Source of the DNA: Zygnema cylindricum
Taxonomy: Eukaryota; Streptophyta; Zygnematophyceae; Zygnematales; Zygnemataceae
DNA length: 64,000 nucleotides
Assembly: GCA_037447655.1 (NCBI GenBank)
Contig: JBBHKE010001558.1
Coordinates: forward strand, 402,025-466,024
Reading direction: 5' to 3'
A program made the translations under genes and the position numbers. Below the pieces are notes generated by a model. It was not told the DNA's origin. It saw only the letters and a program-made list of their open reading frames with translations, and made no database searches. Below, one piece after another: positions 29,216-49,782 of the stretch; within the stretch, counting starts at the first letter, position 1; every line of letters begins with the position of its first letter.

Positions 29216-29361
29216 TCATGCCGTAAGACGTAAGCAAGTATTATTATTTAATCGCGTACTAATTGATGTTTCGGTGACGTGATAGGTTCATATTCGAGAG
29301 TACAACTAGAGATACGTACGGGACAAAGGTTGGATTATACTCCTGTACGGCACCGTGGGAA

Positions 29362-29475
29362 CACGATATAAAATCAACATGGAACTGGACCGCGGTACGA
29401 CGTCGTACTTTAGGAATTCACGATATAAAATCAACATGGAACTGGACCGCGGTACGACGTCGTACTTTAGGAATT
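29362..29475. repeat. 57-bp perfect tandem duplication
   Basis: Two identical 57-base units starting 'cacgatataaaatcaacatg'. Each contains the 14-base palindrome GTACGACGTCGTAC. No variation between the copies, so the duplication is recent. Confidence 0.9.
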
Positions 29476-29889
29476 CAACTGGCTACAAACCTGGCAGGTG
29501 TCTGAAATCATGAACCCTTGGAGGTTCATGCATCATTTTTGCTTAGCTTAGGAAGGGTTTTCATCCTCGAGGTGTAGATGAAAGGCAGTCTGAGGCGGCC
29601 ACGCAGCGGTCGTCTCTTGAAACTGGCAGTGTTTTAACATAAAAACTTGCCTGCTCAGAGACATGTAGGAATTAGTGTAGCCGTACGGATTAGTGAAAGC
29701 ATAGAATAAATGCCATTTTGCGAGATAGTAAATTTTGCAAATTAAGTACGGGAATCCAACATTGGAAGGTTGTCGTTTTCTGATAAACATTATTCTCGGG
29801 ATTTGTCGAACTCTATCGTTAGGGTTTCACCTAAATATTTAGTAACAAGCTAGTTTTTGAGTTAGCGTTTTTCCTTTTTCAGACCCATA

Positions 29890-30353
29890 GTTTCATGCTA
29901 GTAATTATCTCTAAGCTTCTCCTTCTCTTTGTATTAAGACCTTACCTAATCTACTGGCGTAAGCCAGCCTGCAAGGTTTCCCTCCAGATTGTGTTCCACT
30001 TGTCGTGGTGTTTGAATTGTGTTGTGCGGATTGGGTGTTTTCTTGCTTTCAGAGCGCTGATTTTGCGGTCTAGTCTCAGTCCTGTCCGGCTTTGTGGGAA
30101 TACCGACTATCTTGGCTCCCTGAACCGGTTGGGGAAGGGTTCTGGTTCGCTGGCTAGACTTGTGTAGAGAATATTAAAAGACTTCAGAGCCTAGTGGCTA
30201 CTGTCGCAAATATTACTGTACTTAATTTGTACCTTCCTAATTTTCTTTATTCCTTGTGTCAATTGTTTTCTTCTGTCTAGTTTATTTTAATTCGTTTCAT
30301 TTCCAATTTTTTTTATTCATTGTGTCTCTTGTCTAGTTGTTTTGAATTTGTAG

Positions 30354-30423
<70 letters not shown>

Positions 30424-31500
30424 TCTGTTTTTTTTTTTTTTTTTTTTTACTTGTTTGTTATATATATATATATTTCTGTTATGCGTCGTTTTCATTTTAC
30501 TTGTTACCTAGTTTGTTATTGAGTTGTTGGATTTGAGATTGTTGAACTGTCCGGTATCGTTTTCTCTTCTTTCTTCCTACCACATGAACTAACCCAGAAA
30601 ACCTAGAAAACTTAAAATCTTATAACAAAAAAAAAAAAAAAAAAAAAAACCTAAGAAAAAAATATATATAAATATTAGGTTGCACGAATTATCACGAAAA
30701 CTATCATTGCTTTATAGACGGGCAGAGCGTGGCATAGTGCGGATACGCGTGCCCTAACATGCTACTAACTACATAAGTATTTTGAGTTGTGAATTCTTCT
30801 TGACGATTCGTAATTGGAGGAAGGTTGGAGCATCTCTGGGAGACCTTACAGATCGCTCCAAGTGAGTAATCGGGTCCTTGTGGTTGTAGGCACGTGATAG
30901 GTTGTTAACGCGATAACCTACAAGGGTTAGGATCCAACCGAAGACTGTGCCCTCCTTTCCGCATAGGCATTATGGTTCTATTTTCTTTAGACCTGACAAT
31001 GATTGGTCTTGGATAGCGACTTCTTGTCTATTACATCTGGCCTTGTTGGGCCAGGATAATTTCTTGTTTTTATTACATCTGGCCTTGTGGGCCTTGAATA
31101 GTTCCCTGTTTTGTTAAATTTGGCCACAAGTGGCGTTGCATAGGTGACATGTTTCTTCTTGGAGTGGCTTAAAGTGACTTATTGTGGTATTGCTTGGATC
31201 TGGATGTGAACAACCTTGTAGCGGGTGTTCACGATTAGACTAACCCCGGTGATACAGAATAGATCAAATCGTTTACAGGGGTGCTTGTTTGCGTAGGTGC
31301 TTGTTTGCGTGAATTTGAAGACTTCCTGTGTGATTTGATTATTAGATCTGGCAGTGGGCATTTGCTCACTGACTTTGAGTAGGGTCCGGCATCTAGTTGT
31401 ATCCGGATAGGACGACTGTCAGTTTACATGCCAACGGACTGGAACATTTTACCGTTTCCAGCAAGTACCACTAGAAGCTCCAGTCTTTACCGTGGAACGC
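29890..31500 (+). mobile_element. G2 gypsy leader/LTR-end region
   Basis: Shares blocks with the G1 leader (see 23929-26300). Contains a (TA)n microsatellite at 30357-30415, T-runs 30416-30448, an A22 run at 30629-30650, and a two- to three-fold direct repeat around 'tattacatctggccttgt' (31030-31110). LTR borders not located. The stretch 29480-29890 holds nothing recognisable. Confidence 0.55.
30357..30415. repeat. (TA)n microsatellite
   Basis: About 29 uninterrupted TA dinucleotides followed by T-rich sequence. Open frames of Tyr-Ile repeats here are meaningless. Confidence 0.95.
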
Positions 31501-32520
31501 ATCGAGATTTGATTCCGCCCGCTCACCTCTTTTCCAGTTTCTAGGTCATACCAGTCATATCGCCCAGTCTCAGCTTACGGGTTCACCCGACTCTAAGTCT
31601 GGTATTACACCTACATATAGATCTAAATCATTTGTCTCCTCATCCTCTTCCCATAGCTGGGGGGAAGATTCGGACATAGACTCCTTTGATATCCGTGATC
31701 TAAATCTACCACCTTTGCTTTTTCCTTTGAGCGAAAATATACACACTAACTCTAATTCCTATTTTCGGAATATGGCCTCGCCCATAGACACCGGAGAAGG
31801 TAGAAATCAGTTTTGTTTTCCGGGTCTCAATGACACTATGTCCTTGCCACATTTTGAATGCTTTTTGATACCGAAATGCGCGATCTCGCATTCGGGTATC
31901 AAGACCGTTATGATTTACGGGTTGCTTTCTTGCTACTTGGGCGATACTTTAGGGGATTTGCCCTATCTCTATATACACAAAAATATGCGGCAATTTGTGT
32001 TATGACAGAAATGTCACCCACATATTTTGGATCTTTTGCCATAACAGACAGTCGAGAAATTCTTTTCCAAGTTGCTGTACCCGCGGTTTATGACTCTGCA
32101 TGTAACGAAATTTCACCTGAAATACCTGAGGTTCATTATCAGTTCGCCATTGCGGCTCGGGTTGTAATTCCAGCACGCCTTGCACTGCTGGTTCCTCTAA
32201 GGGATCCAGTATCATTTGTTTTCAATTTATTACAGGAAGTGTACCGAATGCGGAATCCCGATCAGGTTAAAGAACTAATGAATTTTGAACGTCGCCTAAG
32301 CAAAACCGCTCCGGCATTGCGAGCACGTATGGAAACATTATTTGAAGCACTGCGAGATCTCATGTCAGACGCAGAGGCAGTTCAAAAATTTGTGGGGCAA
32401 TTTCCCACCCAATCTGGACGTTTCATTCAAAGCCATTTGATTGAGGCATATAGCCTCAAATTTACTTTCGAGCAGACTGCAGAATACGCTGTACGGTATG
32501 AAATGCAGACCAGCTGGTGA
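31500..32520 (+). pseudogene. Ty3/gypsy gag, capsid part, copy G2
   Basis: Homologous to G1 gag over its length. The first part (Ser/Pro-rich, then NQFCFPGLNDTMSLPHFE) is in one frame. After a frameshift near 31855 it continues FDTEMRDLAFGYQDRYDLRV, LLLGRYFRGFALSLYTQKY, VPLRDPVSFVFNLLQEVYRM, QVKELMNFERRLSKTAPALR and FVGQFPTQSGRFIQSHLIEA, ending YEMQTSW at TGA 32518. G1 reads through this point (CWWEAH), so the stop is a mutation. Confidence 0.85.
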
Positions 32521-32622
32521 GACGCTCATTAGCGACCTAAGTCTTCTTCCAATGCAAACCGGAATCCTAATCCTAACCCACGCAACCCATGGCCTTATCC
32601 GAGACCTCCAAGGGCTCTAGCC

Positions 32623-33132
32623 ATGGGAACATTACCAGCAAACCCTGGTGTTCGTATATGCTTCCGATGTGGTAACACTGGTCACGACGTACGCAGCTGT
32701 CCGGATAAAACCGCCATGTGTACTCATTGTAATCAAACAGGTCAATATGTATATCGATGTTACATTAAAAATCTTGATTTCAGTTATCAAAATCAAATCA
32801 AAAACGACGGTATACCTGCTGGCTCGGCAAAATTGGTCACTCTACCCAAGGGGGTAGAGAAAGACAACCCTCCAAAAATCAGTAGGAGGGATCGAGAGAA
32901 AGACGAGATGCAGGCTACTGTGGCGGCTATGATGAAAGAGTTGTTTGCCGCGCTTATGGCGCAGATCAAACCGCAATTAACCGGAATGGCCCGATTGTGG
33001 TCCATATGCTCTCTTTTGCTGGGCAATCTCTTCGGGAGTCCACCGTTCAACAGCGGACAGCTCAGTTTAAAGGGACTCACTATCATAATCGCGAGTCAAA
33101 ATCCATTAACACTCGTATCCCACTATCATTAG
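32623..33132 (+). pseudogene. Ty3/gypsy nucleocapsid zinc knuckles, copy G2
   Basis: Nucleic-acid-binding part of gag. First knuckle CFRCGNTGHDVRSC (CX2CX4HX4C). Second knuckle CTHCNQTGQYVYRC, with Gln in place of the His. Then SRRDREKDEMQATVAAMMKE and LTGMAR, where a frameshift (about 32995) sends the frame into unrelated text. The real continuation is in the next frame. Confidence 0.85.
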
Positions 33133-33713
33133 CTAAAGAACCGCGCTCACCTATTCCAAAAACGGCCTCTAGCATTACCGCTAAAGCATTACCTATTTTA
33201 AAGAGGAGCATACAAGACACCTATAAAGTAAAAGAACGTTTGTCAATCCTGTCCACCATGCTCCCACAGTTGGATAACAACAATGACATTGTAGATCTAA
33301 CTCCTTTAACAGTTGCGTTACAGGCATTACAAAACCATCGTAATGCTCTCTCCCTTCAAGCTATTACCCTTGAAGAGCGGTCTAGCCTCACTCCTCACAT
33401 CATTTTTCTAGATAACAAATTGGGCGTGTTGATAGTTAATGGGTTTGCTCCTGCACTTTCTCTCATTAATACAAGCGCAAAGCCAATTATCCTCTGTTCT
33501 GAGTTTGCCATCAAAATAGGTCTTACAGCGGATAAGCTACAACCCAATACCCCAAGTCTATTGACTTCTGCAGGTAGCACAGAACTAGTTCTCGGTATTA
33601 CGATAAAACCAATATGTTTTCAATTTCAGAGTCAGTTAGCGACGGATTTCGCGGAAATATATGCTCACGCCTTGGTCACCAAGTGTAGTGACTATGAATG
33701 CTTGGTCGGTTAA
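32997..33713 (+). pseudogene. Ty3/gypsy protease, copy G2
   Basis: gag-protease junction in the second frame: ESTVQQRTAQF, TRIPLSLAKEPRSPIPKTAS and KERLSILSTM, then the retropepsin-like domain VNGFAPALSLINTSAKPIIL, FAIKIGLTADKLQ, LLTSAGSTELVLGIT and SDYECLVG, ending at TAA. The active-site triad reads Asn-Thr-Ser where Asp-Thr-Gly is expected, so the catalytic Asp is lost. G1 keeps Asp-Thr but is frameshifted there. Confidence 0.78.
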
Positions 33714-34064
33714 GGCGTTATTTTCCGAGTTGGGGGGGGGGGGGTTGATATGCATGATTAGACATTTTTGTACAGACTGAAAAAAAAATTAGAACGTAAA
33801 ATTTGCTTACCCTTTATCTCGGCCCGGCAACCCATGCCTACTACGGCCCATTCGGCGCTGATCTTGCCAGCCTATGCCACAGTTGGCATAGGTACCTACA
33901 TCATTGAATCTCTAACAACGGATGAAATCTCACCAGATCCTCGAGGTTTACCATAATTATTTACTACACCCGGATTTATCATAAACTCTTCGGAGTTTGA
34001 CCTGCTGTATAACTTTACTATACCAATTCTTTTATCTAGTATTCCAAATCCACCCTCCATTATA

Positions 34065-34666
34065 ATGGATCTGTCCGAGTTTTTTCCCATTAAATGGACA
34101 CCGGTCAATTTACATCCTCACCAAAACAGTCTCGTTATCTTAGAGCTTTTTGCAGGAATAAGGACTTCACTTTTCAGTTGCCTTCGGAACAGTCTTCTGA
34201 TAAAGCATTACTATTCCGTAGATATTGACCCTTTGGCTAGACGCGCTCAGTTGCACCACTGTCAAGTCTTGCACGAACACTATCCTCATCTCTTACCCCA
34301 GTCTGTGTTTCACGATATGCATTCGGCTTTGCCACATGATATCCGGCTAATAAAAAATCATCATTTAATGGAATTGGAACCAATTGATCTCCTCTTTGTT
34401 GGATGGGAATGTAAGGGTATGTCTAGGGCCCGGGAAGGTTTAGGTCTCGCCGATCAACGTACTAAGTTGTTTTTTGAGGTGGTGCGTCTTATCCACTTCT
34501 TCTAAAAACTGGACCTTCTTTTTAGATACATCTTAGAGAACGTCCCAGCTTATAATGATCCTGACCCACGGTTCTTGCAGATTACAAACGCATTGAATCA
34601 TTGATTAGACCACCGTTAATTATTGATGCTGCACGCCACGGTTCGTTGGCCCACCAGGTTCGTTCG
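34065..34666 (+). pseudogene. C5-cytosine DNA methyltransferase, N-terminal part, inside gypsy G2
   Basis: Would transfer methyl groups from S-adenosylmethionine to cytosine in DNA. The 146-residue open frame shows motif I VILELFAGI (residues 24-32), motif II YSVDIDPLA (50-58), motif IV LLFVGWECKGMSRA with the catalytic Cys at residue 116 (nt 34410-34412; usual Pro-Cys is Glu-Cys), then GLADQRTKLFFEVVRLIHF. After an in-frame TAA (34503) the same frame gives RYILENV (motif VI, Glu-Asn-Val). After a frameshift near 34590, LIIDAARHGSLAHQVRS (motif VIII region) runs into the copia insertion at 34667. The layout (LFFE..RL.H, ENV, IDA..AH) looks closest to eukaryotic DNMT3/DRM-type enzymes; that subfamily is my inference. 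It sits between gag-protease (ending 33713) and RT (44741), in the same orientation. Confidence 0.85.
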
Positions 34667-35317
34667 CGTTGTTCTACAACCACCGGTGCAGGTGGAGGGG
34701 CAGCAGTAGTAGTAGAAGTAGACATGATACACTCTCAGAAGGTATCAACAATCCTACCAAACAGCTGTTTTCAAGTGCTCACCAATTGTTATACAAGCAT
34801 CCAAACCTCACAAAACTCTATCAGAATATAGAGTAGCATAAACACTGACAACTACCGAAGTTTTAGCTTAATTGACCCGAGAACACTAAAGATATAATAC
34901 TCAAAAGTTTCCGAAAAATTGTTTGCAGTTTTACTATTTAGTAGTCTTGATACATAATGTGTTATAAGTCCTAAGTCTTATACTTGTGTTGAACCGGCAA
35001 TACTAGTGTACCTGAGAGGTACATCAAACCACGAAGCTACCACTAATATGTCAAGCTACCACTGAGCTATCACTAAGCTACCACTGAGTTACCCACTAAG
35101 TTGACTACAATCGTATGTTTCGCAGTTGCTTTATTCTGTACAGAATCACATTAAGAATATTGGATGCTGCGTTGTCCGTACGGACCATATCAAATATAAT
35201 CTTGGTTGCGTTGTCATGTGTGTGTCGTAGCTTCGCTGCTGCGCTGCTGTGTCTATTTAGCTGTTGCGTTGCTGCGCTGCTCTGTTTGTTAAGACTGAAA
35301 GCTTTCCAAAAACAACA
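34667..35317 (-). mobile_element. family B 3' LTR (651 bp)
   Basis: Starts (minus) TGTTGTTTTTGGAAAGC at 35317. Contains GCTGCGCTGC-type repeats, a series of 'agctaccactgagc' repeats near 35035-35090, and at its end the gag start text. Aligns with 43149-43790 and 20766-21174. Confidence 0.88.
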
Positions 35318-35477
35318 CTCCCCTAAAGCTTTAGACTCAGTATACCGGCGCAGCTGCGATGACAAACTAGCGCAGCATCGCAGCATAGGAATATAGCAAT
35401 TAGCAAGTCACCTAGTCCCACTATATCTCTATGGTGGACTTATCGTAGCGTGACAGTATAGCAGTGCAGCAATTCAA

Positions 35478-36846
35478 TTATTCACTTAATCCCACTCCGT
35501 CCCTACAATACTTCAGCTTAGGAGCAGGAAAAGCTTTAGTGAGCATATCAGCAATCAATTTTGCATCTGGCAAATAACATAATTTAATCACTATAGAGAA
35601 CACTTTTTCTCTTACAAAGTATAATCTTACATCCATGTGTTTGCTTTTGAAGTGATGACTCGGGTTAGAAGCAATTGCAATGGCAGCTTGGTTATCACAC
35701 CAGATCACCTGTAGACTAATCTGCATGTATCCTAGTTCTTGTTATATGGAATTACCCATAAGAGTTCTTTGAGGGTCGAGCTTGCTGCCATATATTCTGA
35801 CTCCATTGTCGACTGTTGTGTAACCTTTTGAAGTTTGCTGCTCTAGCAGCAAGTACCGTTCCCAATTTGTAGAACGAATCCCGTGGTGGATTTCCGGCCT
35901 GGAATGTCGCTATAGCTTGCATCATTCCACGTTTGCAATTTTACTTCTCCTCCGCCTAGTGTGAGTTTGAGGTCTTTGGTTCCTACCAAATATCTTAAGA
36001 CTCTCCTTGCTGCATCAAAATCAGATTTTCTCGGATTCTCTAGACTCCTGCTCAGTACCCCGACTGCTCCAGCAATGTCAAGACGGGTACAATTAATGAA
36101 ATATATTAAGCTTCCCACTATCTGTCTGTAAGGTATTTGTGTCATATAATCATTCTCCTCTGATTCTAAATACTCGCTAACAATGACACCTGGTTCTATC
36201 TCTTCTCTCTCTAACTTTTTTCGAAACCCCATTGGAGTTAGACATCCTTTTGCCCCCCGCATTCCGTACTCATCTAACATGTTTCCAATAGCCTCCTTTT
36301 GAGTCAATTGTATTACTTTCTTATTTTTTCCCCTCTCTACCTGGATACCCAAAATATATTTTGCCTCACCGAGGTATTTCATCTCGAACCGTGAGTTTAG
36401 AGTAGTTTTGATTTTGTTAATTTCAGCCATTGATTTGCTAATTAATAGTAAATCATCCACATACACCGCTATATACACTATCCCATTTTCACCTTTTAGA
36501 ACGTAGACAGAGTGATCATAACTTATTCTTTGAAATCCTAGGCTAGTCAGGAATTCATCAAGCTTCAGATTCCAGTGTATGGGGGCCTGTTTTAGGCCGT
36601 ACAGAGATTTTAGCAACTTGTATACTAAGTGCTCTTTTCCTAGTCCTGCATACTTTTCAGGCTGCTGCATGTAAATGGTCTCTCTAGTTCTCCATACAAA
36701 AAGGCCGTCTTTACATCCATCCGATGTAATTCCATATCTTCTTTAGCAGCTAGGGATAGGAAAATCCTAACTGTCGGAAATCTTACAGCCGGAGAAAATG
36801 ATTCTTCAAAATCAATTCTTTCCTTTTGATTATACCCATTTGCCAT
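35478..36846 (-). pseudogene. copia RT and RNase H, family B
   Basis: 35843-36670 is an intact 275-residue stretch: HLVYKLLKSLYGLKQAPIHW, DHSVYVLKGENGIVYIAVYV followed by DDLLISKSM (catalytic YVDDLL intact), SRFEMKYLGEAKYILGIQVE, IPYRQIVGSLIYFINCTRLD, NDASYSDIPGRKSTTGFVLQ. The RT N-terminus is in an adjoining frame (36640-36846: FEESFSPAVRFPTVRIFLSL, HRMDVKTAFLYGELERP). The RNase H end is at 35478-35726: VIWCDNQAAIAIASNPSHHF, MDVRLYFVREKV, LIADMLTKAFPAPKL. Two frameshifts separate these. The best-preserved RT in the window. Upstream text (36847-36980) has TAG in place of the conserved Trp before ELVD. Confidence 0.92.
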
Positions 36847-36980
36847 AAGTTTGGCCTTTTAATGTTCAATGGTGTTATCGGGATTTAACTTCACCTTGAA
36901 TACCCATTTGTTGCCGATCGCTCTTCGGTCCGATGGAATGTCCACAAGCTCCTATCTTTGAGCATCCATGATGTACTTCA

Positions 36981-39900
36981 TGTTGTTCTTTGGTATAAAA
37001 TAGACCGCAGAAGCGACCCAAACTATCATGCAAGAAGCTAAGCAAAAATAGGTCGACGAACAATCATATGAAATGCATCCTCCATATGCGTACACAGACG
37101 CAACAAACAACATTTAGGGTTTCATGGAATAATCAACATAAATAAACCCTATGACAACATCTAAGGTTTGATGGAATAATCGACATAAACAAACCCTAGG
37201 ACAAATGCATAAACAATGCATATCAAACATATATAAAACAACATAAATAAATAATAACAAAAGACTGCAATCTCACATAAATATTAAATAAAGAAAAGTA
37301 TACCAATAAACACATTTACCCAAATGCATGACCTAATCGGCAACCCTAAAAGTCTACATCTTTGGTCCCCACTTTACTAACCAGCATTGATTATTTATTC
37401 TAATGAAGCTCAAATCTATATATACATTTGTGAGCTGTTAACAAATCACTAAGTGTCAAAATAACCAACGTAAATTACGTAACTGTCATTAAATCAAACT
37501 AATCGTAAGCGTACACCTGAAAGTCAAGCAATCGTAAGCGTACACTTGTCTGCAAATACGACACATAAATTAAAGTGTCGATATCCTCATTAATCACGTA
37601 AAATATAACTATTTTAATCAACACTAAATCATTAATTCAAATAAGACAAAACATTGATGCTTCAAATATTTACACCGACGCATCCAAAAATCCGCGTCAT
37701 AAGTGACAACTTGCTTAGTCACTTGTCGATAAGTCCACGTAGTGAACCGACATCGCATATGTACGGTCCACTAGATAATGTGTCATAAAAACAATGTGGT
37801 TCCTTAAAAATATCGGCGGACGTCGTCCGCCCTCCACGTGCACCTCGAACAACTTGCCGAAATCAATTCGTACGATCCAAATCCTGTCCGTACCGAACTC
37901 ACGTACTTTGTCATAAATGCGCCTTGTCGCATTTAAGGTACACGTCATTTTCGATAAATGCATGTCGCAATAAGCGACAACTTAAAGTACACATGTCAAA
38001 TACGACGCTCCGTACCGGCGGCGTCCCATGTAATAAATTTCATCTGTCGCATTATGTTTCGTACGTGCGACGTACCATTTTATCTTCGTCGATTATCACA
38101 CGTCGGATTGCTTCGCGATCCGCCGTGCATTTCCTCTCACATTTCGCGCCACTCAATTACTCCATTAATTTTATGTGTACATTTAATTCCCTAATCCATA
38201 AATCCTTTCGAACCTCCACAATATATCGCGTAAATGCTTACGCACGAAACATCGCGTACGCACGAAACGATGTGTTCGCACGAAACTAACTTTTCAAAAA
38301 CAACACTCCCCCGAAAATTTAGTTTCGTGCATCCATGATGCCACGTCATCATCTGTCACACTTTATGGAACTACGTCATCAGCTGTCATCAATGTCACCT
38401 TCAACTGCCTCCTCCATTTGAATCCGCCAAATGCCTCCGCCAGAATTTTCCCACTTGTTCCACCATCGCTTCCGCTTCCTCCACATACCATCCAGATTTC
38501 ATAATACATAATATATATATTTTTCATTTTCCGATTACAACAAAATAATTCGTTCCAATACCTAAATCCGGATCTACATTCCCAAAATTCTATCACAAAT
38601 CAACTAAAAATTAAAGCCAAAAGATCACACTAATAATATATCACAGCTCAAATAATTCCTACCTCATTATAACAAATCTAGATTTCAATAATTTTTTTTT
38701 TTTTTTTTTTTCATAAACTATCAAATCCCAAAATTTCCCATATAAAAAATAGTATTTTCCCAAAAATTCTAATAATGTCACATTTCCCAAAAATTTCCAA
38801 CAACTCAAAATCTACATTACAAATCCAATTTTCAACAATCATCGATCCACAAAATTTGGATCTCTCCACCACATGTCACAACTCCACCTTCCGGATCTCT
38901 CTCCCCCAAACGTCGAATCTCCACATTCCACATCTCTCTATCAAACGAATATGTATTTTCCAAAAATAAAATATCATTTCTCATAAGTAATCATTTTCAT
39001 TGAGGGTAGACATTTCGGCACTGTCACTAAGTTAACCCTTGGGGCGATGCAAGATTAAACTCGGCACATACCAACACTATGATAAGGCCGATCTCATGGG
39101 TACACAGACACCATTACTGCAATACAACCAGCAAGGACAATATTAACCCACTAGAATGCGTGTGACAAAAACCTACATCGACTTAACCTAACATATGATA
39201 GATGGGGTGTGGGCCCATAACATGTTGTTCTTTGGTCTAAAATAGACCGCAGAAGCGACCCAAACTATCATGCAAGAAGCTAAGCAAAAATAGGTCGACG
39301 AACAATCATATGAAATGCATCCTCCATATGCGTACACAGACGCAACAAACAACATTTAGGGTTTCATGGAATAATCAACATAAATAAACCCTATGACAAC
39401 ATCTAAGGTTTGATGGAATAATCGACATAAACAAACCCTAGGACAAATGCATAAACAATGCATATCAAACATATATAAAACAACATAAATAAATAATAAC
39501 AAAAGACTGCAATCTCACATAAATATTAAATAAAGAAAAGTATACCAATAAACACATTTACCCAAATGCATGACCTAATCGGCAACCCTAAAAGTCTACA
39601 TCTTTGGTCCCCACTTTACTAACCAGCATTGATTATTTATTCTAATGAAGCTCAAATCTATATATACACTTGTGAGCTGTTAACAAATCACTAAGTGTCA
39701 AAATAACCAACGTAAATTACGTAACTGTCATTAAATCAAACTAATCGTAAGCGTACACCTGAAAGTCAAGCAATCGTAAGCGTACACTTGTCTGCAAATA
39801 CGACACATAAATTAAAGTGTCGATATTCTCATTAATCACGTAAAATATAACTATTTTAATCAACACTAAATCATTAATTCAAATAAGACAAAACATTGAT

Positions 39901-40547
39901 GCTTCAAATATTTACACCGACGCATCCAAAAATCCGCGTCATAAGTGACAACTTGCTTAGTCACTTGTCGATAAGTCCACGTAGTGAACCGACATCGCAT
40001 ATGTACGGTCCACTAGATAATGTGTCATAAAAACAATGTGGTTCCTTAAAAATATCGGCGGACGTCGTCCGCCCTCCACGTGTACCTCGAACAACTTGCC
40101 GAAATCAATTCGTACGATCCAAATCCTGTCCGTACCGAACTCACGTACTTCGTCATAAATGCGCCTTGTCGCATTTAAGGTACACGTCATTTTCGATAAA
40201 TGCATGTCGCAATAAGCGACAACTTAAAGTACACCTGTCAAATACGACGCTCCGTACCGGCGGCGTCCCATGTAATAAATTTCATCTGTCGCATTATGTT
40301 TCGTACGTGCGACGTACCATTTTATCTTCGTCGATTATCACACGTCGGATTGCTTCGCGATCCGCCGTGCATTTCCTCTCACATTTCGCGCCACTCAATT
40401 ACTCCATTAATTTTATGTGTACATTTAATTCCCCAATCCATAAATCCTTTCGAACCTCCACAATATATCGCGTAAATGCGTACGCACGAAACATCGCGTA
40501 CGCACTAAACGATGTGTTCGCACGAAACTAACTTTTCAAAAACAACA
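36981..40547 (-). mobile_element. TRIM-like non-autonomous LTR element, nested in family B pol
   Basis: Two LTRs of exactly 1325 bp (36981-38305 and 39223-40547), about nine differences by eye. The internal region of 917 bp lacks coding text. On the minus strand a polypurine tract (tttcgggggag) precedes the 3' LTR, and TGTTATGGGCCCA follows the 5' LTR as primer-binding site. Target-site duplication CTTCA (36976-36980) / CTTTA (40548-40552), one mismatch. Removing the element restores family B pol (…EAVGEMKYIMDAQ). Polypurine tract and LTR starts match the gag-only family D, so it probably moves with D or copia machinery. The youngest insertion in the window. Confidence 0.92.
38306..39222 (-). 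other. non-coding internal region of the TRIM-like element
   Basis: 917 bases, strongly AT-rich with a T17 run near 38694-38711. No frame has homology to gag or pol. It holds only the polypurine tract (38306-38316) and primer-binding site (39206-39222). Open frames of about 64-77 codons here have no support. Confidence 0.75.
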
Positions 40548-41341
40548 CTTTATTTCTCCTACAGCCTCGATCCAGTGATTCCGTTCTGGTGATGAGAAGG
40601 CCTCTTGATGTGTCAAAGGCTCCCTTGAGGCATCCGAGTAGGCAAAGTGAAAGCTTGCTTGTAGGCGGCTGCTGGATCTTCTTTACCTCAGAAATTCTGA
40701 GGTTGAGATCGGCGGATGCCGCGCATTGCGCTGATTGCGCCGATTGCGATATGTGTGTACAGACCGCTATTGGTCCGGTTCGAATTGAAGTTGTTGAGGA
40801 ACTTGGAGAGAGTCTGACTCCGGAGTCACCACGGGAGAATGTTCAATCTGCGGGATAATTTCTTGCATGCAATCCAAAATGACATACTCCTATACCTTTT
40901 GTTGCTTTTGCTACTCTGTCATTTGAAATAAATCTATGGAGTCTAGTTCATCTTTAACAACGATGTTCTTTGCTACAAATATTTTATGCCTCTCAAACAC
41001 AAAGACTCCATAACCTTTTGAGTGATCGTCATATCATAACAAAATACCGATAATCCTTTTGGTTTCACTTTCCATCTATCTGTAGACATATCCAAGATAA
41101 AGCATTGACTACCAAAGACTTTGAAATGGCTAACATCTAGTTTGCTACCTGTCCAAATCTCATAAGGAGTAGTGTTTACCGATTTGGATCCTATCCTATT
41201 CTTAATATAAACTGCAAAATTTAGAGCCTCAGCCCAGAATTTCGATCCACATTTTTATCTGCGAGCATTGACCTAGAGCTCTCCGTGAGAGATCTATTTA
41301 GTCTTTCCGAACCCCATTTTGTTCCGGTGAATATGGAACAG
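40548..41341 (-). pseudogene. copia integrase C-terminus and RT linker, family B
   Basis: Minus-strand text gives PEQNGV followed by a frameshift inside the Glu motif, SRSMLADK, NTTPYEIWTGSKLDVSHFKV and FILDMSTDRWKVKPKGLS. Then a stop-rich acidic linker, and EAFSSPERNHWIEAVGE, the entry to RT, at the edge of the TRIM insertion. Several frameshifts and stops. Confidence 0.8.
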
Positions 41342-42103
41342 TCAATAGATGACTAATACCTTCCTCAAGTAAAGAGGTTTTAAATTCTTTCGATGTATTT
41401 CACCACCATTGTTCGATCTAAGCTGCAAAATAGGTGAATTATGAAGTTTTTTAACCCATGATTTACAGTGTGTGAAGTGACCAAACACTTCACTCCTCTC
41501 CTTCATGAAGTAAACTTTTGTAAACCTGGAGAAATCACCTGTGAAGGTGACCATATATTTCATCCACCCGACAGATGGAACCTTCGCAGGACAAAAAACA
41601 TCCGAATGAATTTGTTGTAAAAGTTTCGTTGATCGATGCTCAGACTCTTTAGGAAATGGAAATATGTGAATTTTGCCTAAAGCGCAACCATCACAAGTTT
41701 TGGCCAGCTCATCTGTGATTGATACACCCTCTATTTTTCTAGCAAGGACCATTTTCCTCAAACTATCATAGTTTACATGGCCTAATCTTTTATGCCACAA
41801 CTCATCTGAGTGCAAAACACCGGAGTACAGAACATCATTCTCCTTGGTATAAGCCATATCTATGCGGTACATCTTGCTATTATCTCTAGTACCTGTAACC
41901 GCAACCATGCCATTTTTGCTAACAACCTGTCGACCATTTTTTAAATTAACCTCAAAGCCTTTACTCTCTACCAACGACGTTGAAAATTTTTTTTTTTTAA
42001 AGTCATGCACAAATAAGACATTCTGAAGAGTCCTTTCAATTGCTTTTCTTTCTACATAAACTAGCAAAAACTCATCACTCACAGCACGAGTGTGGACACT
42101 CAT
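41342..42103 (-). pseudogene. copia protease end, pre-integrase finger and integrase N-core, family B
   Basis: A 253-residue frame: ERTLQNVLFVHDFKKKKFS, KGFEVNLKNGRQVVSKNG and NSKMYRIDMAYTKENDVLYS. HHCC zinc finger WHKRLGH and CDGCALGK. Integrase Asp in IHSDVFCPAKVPS, TFTGDFSRFTKVYFMKERSE, and the second Asp site reading RSNNGGE, so this catalytic Asp is Asn. The protease active site would lie just upstream (42104-42340) but is not recognisable in one frame. Confidence 0.88.
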
Positions 42104-42342
42104 TCATTAAGCATAATAAATATTTTTCTCCGGCGTTGCTTTCAGATTTTTGAAGATGGCCTTTTTTCAACACATGTGGGTTGATGCTCCTTTATCCATT
42201 ATCCATCCAAGGTCCTTCGCGCCCTCCATTGCTACCGTCATAATGAATAGATCCGTGTCTTCCTCCTCAAAAAATATCAGAGTCTCGTCCTAGAGTGATG
42301 AAAAAGACGCAAATAATGCATTTCCATGAGGTGTAGGCCCCG

Positions 42343-43207
42343 TCAAGCTTTTGTAAAACTGACTTTGTTGCCATCCCGGCCTGTATAAACCTGTATCGTT
42401 AGATTGTTAAAGTTTAGGACAGAATATGTATCCATGACCTCTCTCACTACAATAAAAATATGAATTGTTGGATTGTTTATTTCTACCCTAATTAAACTGT
42501 TTGAACTGATTAAACTGATTACCTTGCTGATTAAACTGACCTTTCTTCCCAAAGTCTGAATTAAAAGCCTCTACTTGCTCAAAATTGATAACATTAGATG
42601 TAGCTTCCTCTTTTAGTAAAATATTGTTGGCTAACTGTAAAGTCCAGCTAGCTTTATCTTTCTGTTTGAGCATGTCAAATGCTCCTTTCATACTACGAGG
42701 GAGACCCATCATGAGTAAAGCTGCCTGTTGAAACGGAGGAGACACCCCACCTGCACAAGCATGTGCATCTACAAGGATACAAAATTTGTTAAAATATTCA
42801 GCCATTGTACCGCCAGTCTACCGCCAGTGTACTTATAGTCCCGAATTTTCCAGCCAATAGAAGCTCTTCTGGACATTAGCCTTTTCATAATCACTTTTAA
42901 GGGATTTCCACATATGAATTGCATTTTTCATTTTTATCCGAGACATAGCTAAGTACTCAAATATACAAAATTTCAGAATAGAACGAGCTTGTGTATTTTT
43001 CTTAGACCATGACGGATCAGATTCATTCAGCGAACCATCCAATATATCCAAAAGATTGACATTCTCAAAATGTGCCTTCACCATACCCGCCCAGTAAACA
43101 TAATTTTCCCCGAAAAAGATAGGAATTCTTGAAGACATGCCCATAACCTGTTGTTTTACAACCACCAGTGTAGGTGGAGGGGCAGCAGTAGTAATAGAAG
43201 TAGACAT
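42343..43207 (-). pseudogene. copia gag, family B
   Basis: The start codon at 43207 lies 59 bases inside the 5' LTR. The frame runs through the PBS (KQQVMGMS) into IPIFFGENYVYWAGMVKAHF, VNLLDILDGSL and AIHMWKSLKSDYEKANVQK, the usual copia gag (UBN2-like) layout, ending after SFYWLENSGL. 42488-42805 continues FNKFCILVDAHACAGG, LLMMGLPRSMKGAFDML and an Asn/Gln/Phe-rich tail. A CCHC knuckle remnant (YCSERGHGYIFC, first Cys lost) is near 42440. Two frameshifts. Confidence 0.85.
43139..43148 (-). other. primer-binding site, half tRNA-iMet type (family B)
   Basis: Minus-strand GGTTATGGGC follows the LTR end AAACAACA. The usual GGTTATGGGCCCA is mutated after ten bases. Confidence 0.7.
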
Positions 43208-43790
43208 GATACACTCTCAAAAGCTATCAAGAATCTTACCAAACAACTGTTTTCAAGTGCTCACTAATTCTTATAAAAGCATCCAAACCTCACACAATTC
43301 TATCAAAATATAAAGTAGCATTAACACTAATAACTCCCAAAGTTTTAGCACATTTGACTTGGTAACAGTCAAGATATAATACTCACAAGTCTCCCAAAAA
43401 CTTTTTGCAGTTTTATTACTTGGAAGTCTAGATACATAATGTGTTTTGAGTCCTAAGTCTTATACTTGTGTTGTACCAGCAATACTTGTGTTCCTGAGAG
43501 GTACGTCAAACCACCAAGCTACCACTAATCTGTCTAGCTACCACTGAGCTACACTAAGCTACCACTGAGATACCCACTAAGTTTACTAGAATCGTATCTA
43601 TCGCAGTTGCTCTATTCTGTACTCAATCATATTAAGAATATCGGATGCTGCGTTGTCCGTACGGACCATATCAAATGTAATTGTGGTTGCGTTGTCATGT
43701 TTGTGTCGCAGCTTCGGTGCTGCGCTGCTCAGTCTCCATAGCAGCTGTGCTGCTCTATCTGCTGAGACTGAAAGCTTTCCAAAAACAGAA
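43149..43790 (-). mobile_element. family B 5' LTR (642 bp)
   Basis: Runs from 43790 (minus start, tip decayed) to AAACAACA at 43149. Contains the gag ATG at 43207. Aligns with 34667-35317 with moderate divergence, so family B inserted much earlier than the TRIM inside it. Confidence 0.85.
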
Positions 43791-44325
43791 ATTCCAAGTG
43801 GACTAACCTGGTGGACATGGGTTGACTTTGAGAGGCTAACCTCGTTGTCCGACCACCTAGCCTTTCAATTCAAGATGCACTTCTTCAATTCCATAAGGTC
43901 TAGACATGTGTACAGACAGACTATCCTATTGCATTTGGTCTTAATATCCCTGACCTGCCACTGCGTGCACTGCCTACACTAGTTGCATATCCACACTCTC
44001 ACGCATACTCACATAATCGACCGGGCATGCTCCACAATACTCATACATGTAGCTTAAAAGAACCTACTGCTACAGAACGAGAACATCTTTTACATTTCAT
44101 TCCAAACACTACTTCCGCCCAAGGACTCACAGAGCGGCAGCACTGCACCTTACTTGGTCGAGTCATGGACCCCCAATCATTGTCATTCGTTTTTGGCATA
44201 GGGTTTGCAGCTGGCCGATACGCACAGAACAATCATTCTCAATCAGCTGCGGGAGGGGGCATACACCATTTAAACATACAGCATCCAAATCCTCACCTTC
44301 TTTTCGGGGTACAACTTATCAGCTA
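43791..44325 (+). pseudogene. C5-cytosine DNA methyltransferase, C-terminal part, gypsy G2
   Basis: Continuation of 34065-34666 after the copia insertion. First KWTNLVDMG (end of motif VIII region, frame restored over the target site). Then, in another frame, PIAFGLNIPDLPLRALPTL and VAYPHSHAYSHNRPGML (target-recognition region). Then EPTATEREHLLHF (motif IX-like), GLTERQHCTLLGRVMDPQSL and FVFGIGFAAGRYAQ (motif X). The Leu-Gly-Arg-x-Met-Asp block matches the C-terminal motif X region of C5 methyltransferases. One or two frameshifts. It ends at a TAG near 44323, about 420 bases before the RT frame. Confidence 0.8.
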
Positions 44326-44399
44326 GATTTTTTTCCTTTCCCCGCTAAGTCTAACACAGATCACACCATTTATGATTTTTTGGAACCTAGTCACATGAG

Positions 44400-45412
44400 T
44401 TGGTATCTTCAGCATACACGGCCGCTAGATCTCAGGTACCGGTACGGGCATCACGACACTGGACAGCTACATTTCCGTCTAGAAGGTTGCATCACGCAGT
44501 AAATTGTTTGCATCAGCTTCTTATCGAGTATGAGTTGGGTCACTCTTTGATAGCAGATAAACAACTAGCATTTGCACAATCCATGGAAGGGATGACCATT
44601 AACACGCCTAAAAAATCGACATGGAAATTCGGAACTGGTGTAACAAAAACTGAACACGAACTTTTAGATGAAGTCATAAACCGAAATGTAGACGCATTTG
44701 CTTTTCCATTAAAAACTTAGGTCAACACACCACTTACAAAATGTCTATTGACCTGGAAGATGACAGACCTATATTTAAGCCCAAGCATCGTCTATCTGAA
44801 ACTGAATGGGAATCTGTAGACAAACGATGCGCAGATTTAGAAGAGGCAGGTCTGTTTTATAAGTCCGATTCCACCTTTGGGGCGCCCTCCGTCATGCCTC
44901 GTAAAAAAGACGCGGAGGGGAATTTCACAAAACGTTGCATGTGTGGGGACTATAGAGAAATGAGTGCACGTACAATCCTGGAGCGACATCCAATGCCGTT
45001 GGCTGAGGATATTTTTGATAATGTTGGAGGAGCGAAATATTTCAGCATCCTGGATGTGCGACAGGGATTTAATCAAATCGAAATAGAGGAAAAAGATCGA
45101 CACAAGACTGCATTTTGGGGTAGTGACGGACGTTGGGAATGGGCGGTTATGCCTTTTGGACTGAAAAATGCACCGACAATATTCCAAAAAGTCATGGACT
45201 CAATCTTGGGGGTATGTAAGTTTGCCCGTTGCTATATCGAAGATCGAATCATCGATTCAGCCTCTATAGAAGAACATGAAGTGCATATAGAGTGGGTGTT
45301 GAAGGAATTAAAAAAGGAAGGACTTAAATGTCATCTTGCCAAATGTACCTTTGGGGCCGAAGGGGTCCCATTCCTTGTGCATTTATCTCATCTGAGGGAA
45401 TTACTCTGCTAG
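44400..45412 (+). pseudogene. Ty3/gypsy reverse transcriptase, copy G2
   Basis: 44400-44720 gives the pre-RT region (HSLIADKQLAFAQSMEGM, TEHELLDEVINRNVDAFAF). After a stop and frameshift, 44741-45412 is RVT_1: LFYKSDSTFGAPSVMPRKKD, MCGDYREMSARTILERHPMP, YFSILDVRQGFNQIEIEEKD, HKTAFWGSDGRWEWAVMPFG, LKNAPTIFQKVMDSIL. The catalytic box is YIED rather than YIDD or YVDD, so one catalytic Asp is Glu. It then reads LKCHLAKCTFGAEGV and is frameshifted at the G-run near 45365. Confidence 0.92.
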
Positions 45413-45999
45413 AAGTCAAAGTGGAAGCAATTAGTAAACTACCGGCCCCAACTGATTTGACTAGCCTGCGTGCATTCCTAGGGTTAGCCAACTATTACCA
45501 GCGGTTTGTTCATAGTTTCAACACACTTGCATCTCCATTAAAAGAACTTTTAAAGAAATCAGTCTCGTTCACATGGGGACCCTCTCAGATCGAGGCATTT
45601 TAAGGATTAAAGGACGCACTATCCACCGCTCCCATCCTTCGTCCCCCAAATTATAAATTACCGTTTTGTCTACAGACTAACTTTGGTAAGCCCGGTATTG
45701 CCGCTATCCTAACTAAACGCAAACTCACAGGTGAGGAATATGTGGTGGCCTACGCCAGTAGAAGCAACAATCAAGCGGAATCAAATTACAGTAGTAACGA
45801 GGGAGAATGCATTGCCGCAGTTTGGGGTATTGTGCATTTTTGACATTATCTCTACAGCAAGCCTTTTACCATTCTTATTGACCATCAACCATTGCATTGG
45901 CTCATGACCAATGAAAAGCTTTCTGACAAATTAGCCCGTTCGGCTCTTATTTTATAGGAATATGACATGGAAATAATCCATTGACCCAAGCTCGTTAGT
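45413..45999 (+). pseudogene. Ty3/gypsy RT thumb and RNase H, copy G2
   Basis: The shifted frame (45328-45603) gives ISKLPAPTDLTSLRAFLGLA and YYQRFVHSFNTLASPLKELL. After a stop, GLKDALSTAPILRPPNYKLP then FCLQTNFGKPGIAAILTKRK (catalytic Asp of RNase H replaced by Asn in QTNFG), VAYASRSNNQAESNYSSNEG, ECIAAVWGIVHF, a stop, HYLYSKPFTILIDHQPLHWL and DKLARSALIL. Several single stops. Confidence 0.85.
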
Positions 46000-46530
46000 T
46001 TGAATGTCAGCGACCTCTGTAGAAACCTTTTGCCCCACTCTAATGATAACGATGTACGACAAGATTTTGATGAAGAATCAGTTGCCTCCTTAACAGCCAG
46101 AGCACATCTGATTTACAGTTTTGCAACATCTACAAACCACAAAACCGAACACGATCCATGGCGAGACAGTGCTTTAATTCTTTTTCTATCTACTCTGTCT
46201 TTTCGGGCGCGCACCCTACCAATAGAGGAGGAGCGTGTTCTTAAGAGAGCCCAAATTTTCTTATGGATGAGAGGCTCACTTATTTGTCTTCTCTCAAATA
46301 GAATTCACCGGCATGTCACACGGCTGACCAAACGACTATCACTTATCAACCAAATTCTACTAACCTTGGACACTATGACACCAAACAGACTTTGAATTTG
46401 GTACACGCACGGTATTGGTGGTCTTGCATGCAGGCTGATATGGCGGCTGTGTTGCAAGAATGCAGCACATGTGACTGGCTACAAACTGTCCAGCGTGCCT
46501 GGGGAACCATAAAGAATGAAACTGGTAGTA
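46000..46530 (+). pseudogene. Ty3/gypsy integrase zinc finger, copy G2, truncated
   Basis: Connection region (46000-46395), then after a frameshift the integrase HHCC finger: GHYDTKQTLNLVHARYWWSC and MQADMAAVLQECSTCDW. The DDE core is absent because G2 is cut at about 46530 by a family D LTR fragment. Confidence 0.78.
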
Positions 46531-46976
46531 ATTTTTAGACTTAGGAACTCTTGGGACAAAAATTGTTTTGCTCCCTTTTGGTAATTTCATCTGAGGATTG
46601 CTCTTAGTTTTATTTGTAGAATTATCTCAAAATTTGCATGTGTGTTCCTCTTTAAATTGGAAATATTGTACAAAATTTGCAAATCTATTGTGTGTCTGGT
46701 TTGCTTGGGACTTTATTGTGAAGTTGGTCAAATTTATCTAATTTCTGACAAGTTGGTTTTTTGCAACTTTGACTGAGTGGTGTGATATTTCTATTTAGTA
46801 TTTTTGTATGAAAATTTGTGGAGATACTTAGTGATCTGGGTTTAATATTTTGACGTAGTTTCGGATAGTTTTAGTAATTATGTAGAATTTTGAGAGGATT
46901 CAAAGTAAGCTGTTTTTGGGGTAGTCTGTGGTGCTTCCGAGGGTAAATTCATTGTTGAAAATGGCTATAAACAACA

Positions 46977-47960
46977 GGTTATGGGCCCACGCCCATGCCT
47001 ACCTATTTTGGATGAGTCTTATTTACCCATATTTGATAGATCTAACTATTATTACTGGAGGAGTATGATGGAGGAGTATGATGGAGAGCTTCTTTAGGAG
47101 GAGGGAGCTGATGAGTGTGGTGGATGGGACATGTACCGAATCATCGCGTGGATGGGAGGAGAAAAACGATGAGTGTTTGATTATTATCAAGCTATGCTTG
47201 AATGAGGAATTTGTAATGATGTACATTTGTCTGAAAATTGCAGTTGAAATATGGAACGATTTAATATGTACTTATCAAAAGACTTCCGTGTATCATTGGA
47301 TGATTAGTGTTACCAAAATAGTTGACTATAAGTATGCAGGAGGTAGTATGGTGGAATAGTGTAATGGTCTACAAGTATTATTTGTAGAAAATGCCTTGGC
47401 AGGAAGAAGCTTTACCGATGTTCAACAAGCTCTCTTTTTAATGAGAGGCCTACCTAAAATATTTAAAGGTGCATTTTGATAGATTGGCTCGGACGATAAA
47501 AAGGATTAGAACCTAACTTTATCAATCATATTTGTTTTAGAGCAAGAGGGTTATAAAGAATCACTAAATAATTTGGGGAATTTTCAGGGTGTTAAAACAT
47601 AGTTTCAGAAAAATAGAGAAAATTGTCAATCTGAAAACTGCTTTTATTGTAATTACTCAGGGTATACCTTCAAGGTATGTCCATCATATAAAAGTGCATG
47701 TCTCACAAGAAATTTCAGAGAAGGGTGGGACAACATTCGAGTTCAGCCCCCTATACAAAGGCAACACAATACATTTACTAATCCGAGGAAATATTTTGAA
47801 GACAAAAGGGTTACACCTTTCGAGAAATTTGTTTATTTGCCAACTGTCATTTTTGGAAATATGGAGAACGAGGACGGAGTGGGAAAAAGTATTGTCACCG
47901 AAGATGGTGTGGAGGAAAATGAGACAGAAAGGACGCGGATTTTATAACTTTTTCTGGTGA
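46977..47960 (+). pseudogene. gag, element D1
   Basis: Frame through the PBS: GYKQQVMGPRPCLPI, then stops. 47078-47359 gives ESFFRRRELMSVVDGTCTES, DECLIIIKLCLN, AVEIWNDLICTYQKTSVYHW and YKYAGGSMVE, homologous to D2 gag. Later text (CNYSGYTFKVCP-like, about 47630-47690) is a degraded zinc knuckle. The LTR ATG expected upstream is TTG in this 5' copy, although the 3' LTR keeps ATG. Confidence 0.75.
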
Positions 47961-47964
47961 CAAA

Positions 47965-48393
47965 TTGGTGAGTGAAAAATGCTTACAAGAGGGAGAGTTA
48001 AGTGAAGTAAAACGAGTTGGAGGAAATGATGCGGAAGTGATAGTAGAACAGAAAAATAATGTGGATGTGGAATTTAATGACCTTAGAGAAAGAGAGAGGA
48101 AAAATGTTCAGAAATTTGGCATAAGAGAGGGAGTTTGTAATTTTGGAAAACAAAATAAAACTGCAAAAATTGGAAAAATAGGAAAAGAAAACGGGAAGAA
48201 GAGATTAGTGAAGAAAAAAATAAAAATTAGAATTTATGACATTAAATGGGTAGAAAACGGTGACAAAGGTGTAAACTTACTGAAAACACAAACATTTATT
48301 AAGAAAGCAAATAAAACATGCAGGACGCAAAGGATCACTAGTAGAACAAAACAGGTTCAAAAGGTGGTAAAAAGAAGACATCGTGAAAAGTGA
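47965..48393 (+). pseudogene. basic C-terminal region of gag polyprotein, D1
   Basis: A 142-residue Lys/Arg/Glu-rich frame: VSEKCLQEGELSEVKRVGG, NVQKFGIREGVCNFGKQNK, KKRLVKKKIKIRIYDIKWVE, QTFIKKANKTCRTQR, KVVKRRHREK. Homologous to 63284-63850 (D3) and the broken copy at about 55005-55530 (D2). Same order in each, downstream of the zinc knuckle. No known domain recognised. Composition suggests nucleic-acid binding or nuclear localisation (inference). Probably one polyprotein with gag in the ancestor. Confidence 0.7.
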
Positions 48394-48589
48394 TTTTATG
48401 GAGGATATTTTTGGAGGAAATGGAAGACATGGCGGAAGGCAACTGAGTGAGTGGTGACGTCAGCGGAAGCGGTGGTGACGTTTGAACAAAAAGGAATAAG
48501 GGAGGAAATTTGAAGGTACGGAAAGGTACAACTATATTTCACACGCGGCATATATTGTACCAGATGCACGAAACTAAATTTTCGAGTAG

Positions 48590-49782
48590 TGTTGGTTATT
48601 AAAAAGTTAGATGCGTGCGCACACGACGTTTTGTGCGTGCGCGTATTCGCGTGCGTATCTAATTATCAAAAGTAATGTGGTGGTTCGAATGGTTTGCGGA
48701 TTTGGGGGAGTAGATGTACAATGAAAATTAAAGGGACGTGAAGAAGTAATAAAGTGGCGCGGAATTCGTTGGAAAAAAGACGGCGGATTGCGAAGCTATC
48801 CGATTTGAAATATTGAAAATGTACGTTGCCCGTACGAAATGTAATTTGTCAAGCGAACGAAGTGCTTACGGTACGGTCTAGATTTGGAGAGAATGACGTC
48901 GTTTCGTCAAGTGTACTTTGGAACCACGTGGCACGACATCGTCGGTGCCGAATAAGAGCTACGGACGGCGGAAATGCCGCCGTTATTTTTGAACAAGTGG
49001 GACGCGAAATCGCGTCCATCACATTATATTTATTTTGGACGATTAGGATTCGTTTGACGAAATTCGAAAGGTTTGTAGCAGCGCCCTCAGTTTGGTCATT
49101 TAGGTGAGGGACGTGAAATTGCGTCCATCACATGATGTTTATTTTAGACGGTCCAGATTCGTTCGATGAAATTAGAAAGGTTTGTAAATATTTGCAACAA
49201 TGTTTTGTCCTATCTGTATTAGGTATTAGTGTAAATCTATTCATTCTCACACGTCACCAAGTATTCGGGTTACGTACGGCTGGTATGCCTCCCTCCAGTT
49301 AGTAGTGCGCTGTAGTGTTTATTTGTAGGACTTAGTCATTTTTAGACTTAGGAACTCTTGGGACAAACACTGTTTTCCTCATTTTTGGTAATTTCATCTG
49401 AAAATTGCTTTCATTTTTATTGGCAAAATTATCTGAAAATTTGTATGTGAGTTCCTCTTTATAATGGAAATAATGTAGCAAATTTGCAGATCTATTATGT
49501 GTCTGGTTTGCTAGGGACTTCATAGTGAAGTTGGTCATATTCGTCTAAGTTTTGGCAGGTTGTTTTTCTGCAACTTTGACTGAGTGGTGTGATAATTCAA
49601 TTTAGTATTTTCATATAAAGATTTGTGGAGATACTAAGTGATCTAGGTGTTATTTGTTAACGTAGTTTCAGATTTTTTGGTAATTATGTAGAATTCTGAG
49701 TGGATTCAAAGTAGGCTGTTTTTCGGGTAGTCTGTGGTGCTTCCGAAGGTAAATTTATGGCTGAAAATGGCTATAAACAACA
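48590..49782 (+). mobile_element. family D 3' LTR of D1 (1193 bp)
   Basis: TGTTGGTTATTAAAAAG to ATAAACAACA. Contains the inverted CGCACGAAAC cluster at its start, repeated 'cgcgtccatcacat' blocks (49005-49140), and the gag ATG near 49757. Matches solo LTR 4460-5651 in full. Confidence 0.85.

Follow-up and report, generated by a model that had tools for sequence, protein, structure and literature searches.

A DNMT3-like methyltransferase as a polyprotein domain of Ty3/gypsy retrotransposons in Zygnema cylindricum, and a clade with Glu-Cys in motif IV

Gypsy elements with Dnmt3 domains are a kind already known. According to the text of de Mendoza et al. 2018 (PMC5890265), KnitGypsy-Dnmt3 of Klebsormidium nitens is a gypsy element with a Dnmt3 domain, whose key residues are conserved and whose Ka/Ks lies below 0.2. 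The same text describes SymbioDIRS-Dnmt3 and SymbioLINE-Dnmt of dinoflagellates, which likewise are retrotransposon-borne methyltransferases at high copy number but are carried by tyrosine-recombinase (DIRS) elements and by LINEs rather than by gypsy elements; it reports that SymbioDIRS-Dnmt3 methylates CG in yeast and discusses, for DIRS, methylation of the element's own complementary DNA (cDNA). In the parts of two further papers available here, the 2018 cases are repeated with Copia and DIRS named (PMC12344493), and tracheophytes are described as having no transposon methylases (PMC6338049). Here we describe a 64,000-nucleotide stretch of the streptophyte Zygnema cylindricum (hereafter the window; G000:C1166:402025-466024 in our numbering of the host genome), in which a decayed Ty3/gypsy element on the plus strand, at about 29214-46487, holds a DNMT3-like cytosine-5 methyltransferase (DNMT) between its protease-like region and its reverse transcriptase (RT), the two halves of the DNMT being parted by a later copia element.

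Set against the text of the 2018 paper (PMC5890265), the Zygnema family resembles KnitGypsy-Dnmt3 in being a gypsy element with long terminal repeats (LTRs), in carrying within the Pol frame a Dnmt3-related DNMT that lacks the DRM-type rearrangement, and in residing in a green-lineage host; the dN/dS ratios of its DNMT, far below 1 in each comparison, point towards the purifying selection described for KnitGypsy-Dnmt3. An open host copy on contig C1344 (L032), with which the window was compared, has the protease (below the Pfam cut-off), RT, RNase H and integrase of such an element, with the DNMT in the Pol frame. It also has a PHD finger, a possible further difference from KnitGypsy-Dnmt3. 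The clade to which the window belongs differs from KnitGypsy-Dnmt3 in its Glu-Cys motif IV and in its at least 121 DNMT matches.

The methyltransferase between protease and reverse transcriptase

The N-terminal part of the DNMT lies at 34065-34669 on the plus strand of the window and holds motifs I, II, IV (GWECKG, 34401-34418), VI and the start of VIII; an ATG stands at 34065, and homology to the domain of L032 begins at 34104. Its open reading frame (33957-34505) matches the methyltransferase profile PF00145 at an E value of 3.2e-7, which passes the curated cut-off, and its nearest solved structures are those of DNMT3A, weakly (E 0.003). The C-terminal part (43788-44257, plus strand), assigned by homology, holds the rest of motif VIII (WTN), the target-recognition region and motifs IX and X. 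The right piece (43904-44326) on its own gave no match in Pfam or PDB; it is colinear with a related element, L001 (E 8e-16), and with a host copy at 81%. In the window and in the host copies the motifs run in the order I to X, so the DRM-type arrangement, with motifs VI-X before I-V, is not seen. The initial annotation, made from the letters alone, had placed a DNMT inside a Ty3/gypsy element and had proposed a methyltransferase profile search; the significant match of the left piece, the RT downstream on the same strand and the colinear host copies bear this placement out.

The two halves abut, the first ending in VRSR before the first copia LTR, which starts at 34670, and the second resuming with SKWTN after the second LTR, which ends at 43787. 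Residues 480-890 of L001 correspond to window positions 33360-34559, residues 895-925 to 34571-34663 and residues 928-1073 to 43799-44233, across the copia. Since this alignment is colinear, we conclude that the two pieces were once adjacent in one gene and that the protease-DNMT-RT placement is common to both elements. The copia is not the only damage to the DNMT: its left half has a stop (34503-34505) and, near 34565-34577, a frame shift, and its right half has three stops after 43788. Excision of the copia would therefore not yield an open gene. Thus the earlier proposal that removal of the copia restores the frame holds at the junction only, the other stops and the frame shift persisting.

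The host genome (352,776,454 bases) contains at least 123 matches to PF00145, a lower bound (123 of 782 candidates scored, all above the cut-off). With the DNMT protein of L032 as query, at least 121 matches, 64-100% identical, were obtained (120 scored of 1865 candidates; one place was counted twice), and its RT gave at least 151, of which 150 were used in pairing DNMT with RT. Around the best 20 of the 123 profile matches, 10-kb stretches showed an RT downstream on the same strand in 15, a DNMT without RT in the stretch in four and a CMT-like exon in one. This exon (L024, G000:C514) has chains 9mvy, 7ubu and 4fsx as nearest structures, with 4fsx (listed as DNA (cytosine-5)-methyltransferase 1) at 3.7e-29 vs 1.2e-12 for the next group (6x9i); we take 4fsx to be maize ZMET2 and 6x9i to be human DNMT1, an affinity that fits a green plant as host. 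In another stretch (L035), the RT is only 32% like that of L001 and lies on the strand opposite the DNMT, and thus belongs to another element.

In L032, a single frame of 2395 amino acids encodes gag, protease, DNMT, RVT_1, RNase H, H2C2, rve and PHD; the zinc knuckle and protease fall below the cut-off, and the DNMT (PF00145 2e-11), RVT_1, RNase H, H2C2, rve and PHD (1.5e-9) above it. Gypsy copies with the order gag-protease-DNMT-RT-RNase H-integrase, which the initial annotation had suggested looking for, are thus present in the same genome. The LTRs of L032 are plain direct repeats of 931 bp, identical at 931 of 931 positions, and this copy was therefore inserted recently. A further copy (L033, C1407) is 99.89% identical to it over 7287 bases.

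A listed DNMT lies upstream on the same strand at 64 of the 150 RT places, with a median DNMT-RT gap of 469 bp among the 55 found with the L032 (window-type) DNMT query (44 of them within 380-520 bp). At four of the RT places that lack a listed DNMT, the sequence was fetched and read, and a DNMT was present in all four. A protease joined directly to RT, the arrangement named at the outset as speaking against a family domain, was not seen among these 68 of 150 places (64 listed and four fetched), the other 82 being unexamined. Collectively, these data show that the DNMT is a regular polyprotein domain of a Ty3/gypsy family, between protease and RT, and that a PHD finger follows the integrase. 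In L032 and in L001, this finger forms the C-terminal end of the gypsy polyprotein.

L001 is a 9285-base contig (CADCWO010000201.1) reached via an alignment of RT relatives and filed under a cyanobacterial metagenome-assembled genome (MAG), presumably as eukaryotic contamination. It appears circular by a 127-base end overlap; other contigs with gypsy-like RTs (L002-L009) come from MAGs of bacteria or archaea and from one Streptomyces assembly. Its first frame has an aspartic-protease match below the cut-off and the DNMT (PF00145 6.8e-12), and its second RT, RNase H, integrase and PHD finger. L001 is therefore like the host family in its order, gag-protease-DNMT then RT-RNase H-integrase-PHD, but unlike L032 it has two frames instead of one and Pro-Cys in motif IV, and it is 37-45% identical to the window pieces. 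The named RT relatives are from Closterium.

Among solved structures, DNMT3A/B/C rank first for both L001 (2.4e-8) and L032 (8.4e-11), followed by HaeIII/HhaI (1e-5 for L001 and 0.002 for L032); DRM ranks below DNMT3A/B/C for L001, and for L032 the structures listed at E<=1 include no DRM. This ranking suggests that the DNMT likely descended from a host DNMT3. The protein database gave no match for the left DNMT piece among 49 candidates, nor at polyprotein length (X at stops) at E<=1 among 1742 candidates. No match was found among viral contigs for the RT, the DNMT piece, the gag of a second gypsy copy in the window, the RT alignment or the L001 DNMT, and none among genome contigs for the window RT used alone.

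Glu-Cys and Pro-Cys clades

Motif IV was read in the window and in 60 of the 123 stretches, a sample that was not random: 20 were the best PF00145 matches, 20 were chosen for a profile span of about 3 to 113 and 20 were mixed. All 37 copies read of the window's clade carry Glu-Cys and all 23 of the other clade Pro-Cys, and one stretch, the CMT-like L024, belongs to neither. The 20 stretches chosen by profile span are all Glu-Cys, as are the four copies fetched later from RT places. Whereas key residues are conserved in KnitGypsy-Dnmt3, the window's clade has Glu in place of the motif IV Pro in every copy read; the Pro-Cys clade has the Pro in all 23 copies. The catalytic Cys itself is present in 60 of 60 element copies, window included. 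In the 37 Glu-Cys copies, Glu is encoded by GAG (21) or GAA (16) and Cys by TGT (25) or TGC (12).

The motif reads GWECQG in L032 and L033; L021 and L022 are also Glu-Cys, with a stop and a Ser, respectively, in place of the Trp, and the remaining element copies among the best 20 read GWPCQG. Of 24 Glu-Cys copies in which further motifs were read, every one has retained motif VI (LEN), and most have retained motifs I, VIII, IX and X. In a 61-row tree, each clade forms one side of a branch (Shimodaira-Hasegawa-like approximate likelihood ratio test, SH-aLRT, 100 and 99), which upholds the early suggestion that Glu-Cys could mark a distinct clade: 37 of 37 copies against 0 of 23, on one branch with SH-aLRT 100. 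With long branches converging on L001, the branching order of the two clades with respect to this element is uncertain. The DNMT tree and the RT tree both group the window, L021, L022, L032 and L033 (100/100 and 99/100), and the two domains have therefore travelled together in the window's clade; four proteins (P0002, P0003, P0005 and P0006) join this clade in the RT tree (82/93). We conclude that Glu-Cys in motif IV is not decay. In the open-licence literature searched, which did not extend to the K. nitens alignment of the 2018 supplement, no such clade was met.

Selection was assessed from the ratio of nonsynonymous to synonymous substitution rates (dN/dS). Between the window and L032, dN/dS was 0.23 (0.16-0.35) for the DNMT, 0.25 (0.15-0.40) for RT, 0.26 for the protease piece and 0.60 (0.34-1.15) for gag. 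L032 and L021 gave 0.12 for the DNMT and 0.05 for RT; for L032 and L022 the DNMT gave 0.066 at near-saturated dS (2.5), and RT, with dS saturated, no usable ratio. Open full-length DNMTs were compared within each clade, leaving out pairs outside 0.1<dS<1.2 (18 of 21 Glu-Cys and 15 of 28 Pro-Cys pairs): seven Glu-Cys copies, with three of 21 pairs in range, had a median of 0.188, and eight Pro-Cys copies, with 13 of 28 pairs in range, 0.276. Because neutral decay of broken copies moves dN/dS towards 1, decay cannot produce this signal of constraint. With DNMT ratios far below 1 in each comparison, the methyltransferase appears to be under purifying selection in both clades.

The window copy and its surroundings

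Compared with L032, the window copy is an old, broken member of the family. Its 5' LTR lies at 29214-30212 (plus strand, as are all of its parts), where blastn aligned two blocks, at 80% and 91%, to the LTR of the C1344 copy; this LTR contains a perfect 57-bp tandem duplication (29362-29477). The 5' untranslated region (30218-31125) shows patchy 80% similarity to C1344 by blastn. Gag follows at 31389-32994, identified by tblastn to the L032 polyprotein, with shifts and stops inside and a CCHC zinc knuckle below the Pfam cut-off, and then, by homology only and with no Pfam match in the window piece, an aspartic-protease-like region (32997-33713), which ends where the initial annotation had ended its gag-protease.

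Downstream of the DNMT, a linker homologous to that of L032 (44239-44714) runs in two frames into the RT. The initial annotation had this RT starting at 44741; its presence is confirmed, and its position is given here as 44699-45385 (RVT_1 1.3e-23, in the frame 44672-45412; 86% to the C1344 copy). RNase H and connection, with four stops, were placed by homology at 45382-46356, and the zinc-binding start of the integrase at 46359-46487. Similarity to L032 stops at 46487; the element is truncated in the integrase at about this point, and a search of the 64-kb window revealed no 3' LTR. Relative to L032, the pieces lie in several frames, with four stops in gag, four from protease to DNMT, three in the right DNMT piece, four in RNase H and none in the RT core.

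The later insertion (34670-43787), which lies on the minus strand, is identified as a copia by RVT_2 (3.5e-37) and gag_pre-integrs (8.8e-12); its LTRs, at 34670-35314 and 43152-43787, have TG..CA ends and are 86.7% identical. A matching 5-bp target duplication was not found, the flanks reading CGCGT and GAAAT. The copia LTRs contain an apparent start of its gag frame, and inside the copia a repeat pair at 36979 and 39221 (spacing 2242 bp) shows 100% identity along 300 bases.

Shortly beyond the 3' side of the gypsy element lies another LTR-like element (46526-49787), with repeats at 46526-46981 and 49333-49787 that are 86.6% identical; it resembles a neighbour with copia-type gag, and satellite DNA lies beyond. 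A 40-bp satellite forms two arrays (49802-52835 and 57421-61058, 73-76% matches) beside related copia pieces. A second gypsy copy, on the minus strand at 23721-21499 (gag frame from 24015), consists of gag and protease alone and matches residues 153-885 of the L032 frame at 55%. No DNMT was seen after it in the window, and a segment at 21450-21388 resembles the PHD finger of the element (2 of 500 shuffles were equally good; no Pfam match). This copy may have lost an internal segment that began ahead of the DNMT and reached to the end of the PHD finger. We considered it as a DNMT-less family member and rejected it as such: its similarity ends before the DNMT region, which makes it uninformative. 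Rfam gave no match at gathering scores.

What the methyltransferase may do

With moderate confidence we favor a reading in which the family is split into Pro-Cys and Glu-Cys clades, both constrained, with at least one recent Glu-Cys insertion, and in which the Glu-Cys enzyme would be active with an altered pocket. The methyltransferase would be released, or stay tethered with Pol in the particle, and would act either on cDNA newly made from the element or on target chromatin that the PHD finger helps to choose; new copies would thereby resemble host DNA or be quietly tolerated. The position of the DNMT inside Pol and the CG activity of SymbioDIRS-Dnmt3 in yeast make cDNA methylation the leading idea, and by this analogy we infer that the element may methylate its own cDNA. 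The PHD finger suggests a reading of histone tails at the target, for which chromodomain integrases offer an analogy. Since the catalytic Cys and the other motifs read are kept, the Glu-Cys enzyme most likely retains methyl-transfer chemistry with an altered cytosine pocket, and a modified enzyme seems somewhat likelier than a dead one.

Several points weigh against this reading. The part of PMC2965745 available here describes the motif IV Pro as invariant, hydrogen-bonded to the cytosine amino group, and predicts that Cys without Pro is inactive. KnitGypsy-Dnmt3 gave no methylation in yeast, a result that its authors, in the text of PMC5890265, call inconclusive. Three of 21 Glu-Cys pairs of open full-length DNMTs were usable for dN/dS, and no target duplication is clear around the recent C1344 copy. 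The DNMT3 label comes from the ranking of solved structures, and phage C5 methyltransferases also match the L001 DNMT: the top five listed are 28-32% identical and cover 55-63% of the domain, and none of the 175 records reaches 60% identity or covers more than 80% of the query. Finally, among host stretches L018-L037 the observed-to-expected CpG ratio is 0.81-1.03 in four of four Glu-Cys 10-kb stretches vs 0.64-0.76 in seven of 15 Pro-Cys ones, with flanks and GC content uncontrolled; in the window element it is 0.89 to the left and 0.71 to the right of the copia. CpG depletion, which CG methylation leaves as its footprint, is thus weak in the Glu-Cys stretches and stronger in the Pro-Cys ones. 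At most, this contrast hints at a difference in methylation between the clades.

A rival reading, which we consider rather doubtful, though still a serious contender, takes the Glu-Cys DNMT for a pseudoenzyme comparable to DRM3 or DNMT3L, one that transfers no methyl group and is kept for DNA binding, or for steering or blocking a host or Pro-Cys-clade methyltransferase. Like those DNMT3-class proteins, as the available part of PMC2965745 presents them, it has a lost or changed Pro-Cys pair: the Pro is gone from all 37 copies, OsDRM3, with Cys but no Pro, is predicted there to be inactive, and the weaker (uncontrolled) CpG depletion of Glu-Cys stretches points the same way. DRM3 and DNMT3L, however, are host regulators, and DRM3 proteins have lost further catalytic residues, among them, in that account, the Glu of motif IX and the Gly of motif X, residues that most of the 24 Glu-Cys copies keep. 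Moreover, all 37 copies, even the broken ones, still have the catalytic Cys, encoded by either of its synonymous codons.

A bolder form of the active-enzyme reading, which we regard as tentative and unlikely, is that the Glu-Cys lineage is catalytic without the motif IV proline on a changed substrate (e.g. an RNA-DNA hybrid, single-stranded cDNA or non-CG sites), and that this change was selected in the retrotransposon and aided its spread to more than 100 copies. That Glu-Cys is damage in one old copy of an otherwise ordinary Pro-Cys element, as the broken state of the window copy and the Pro-Cys of the related L001 might suggest, is refuted: all 37 copies read share it, and one of these is the open-frame copy whose LTRs are identical. 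Equally refuted is a host methyltransferase gene fragment lying by chance inside or between unrelated elements, which the window alone could not exclude, no DNMT being seen after its second gypsy copy: the similarity of that copy breaks off immediately ahead of the DNMT region, the domain order recurs in 15 of 20 host stretches, one copy has it in a single open frame, and L001 is an independent, related element.

Retrotransposons are usually the targets of DNA methylation. In this family, a silencing tool would be under the control of the element, while the host also possesses its own methyltransferases, as the CMT-like exon indicates. Two clades in one genome, one residue apart next to the catalytic Cys, provide a natural experiment on the role of the proline, and the same contrast bears on whether such elements need methyl transfer or just the protein.

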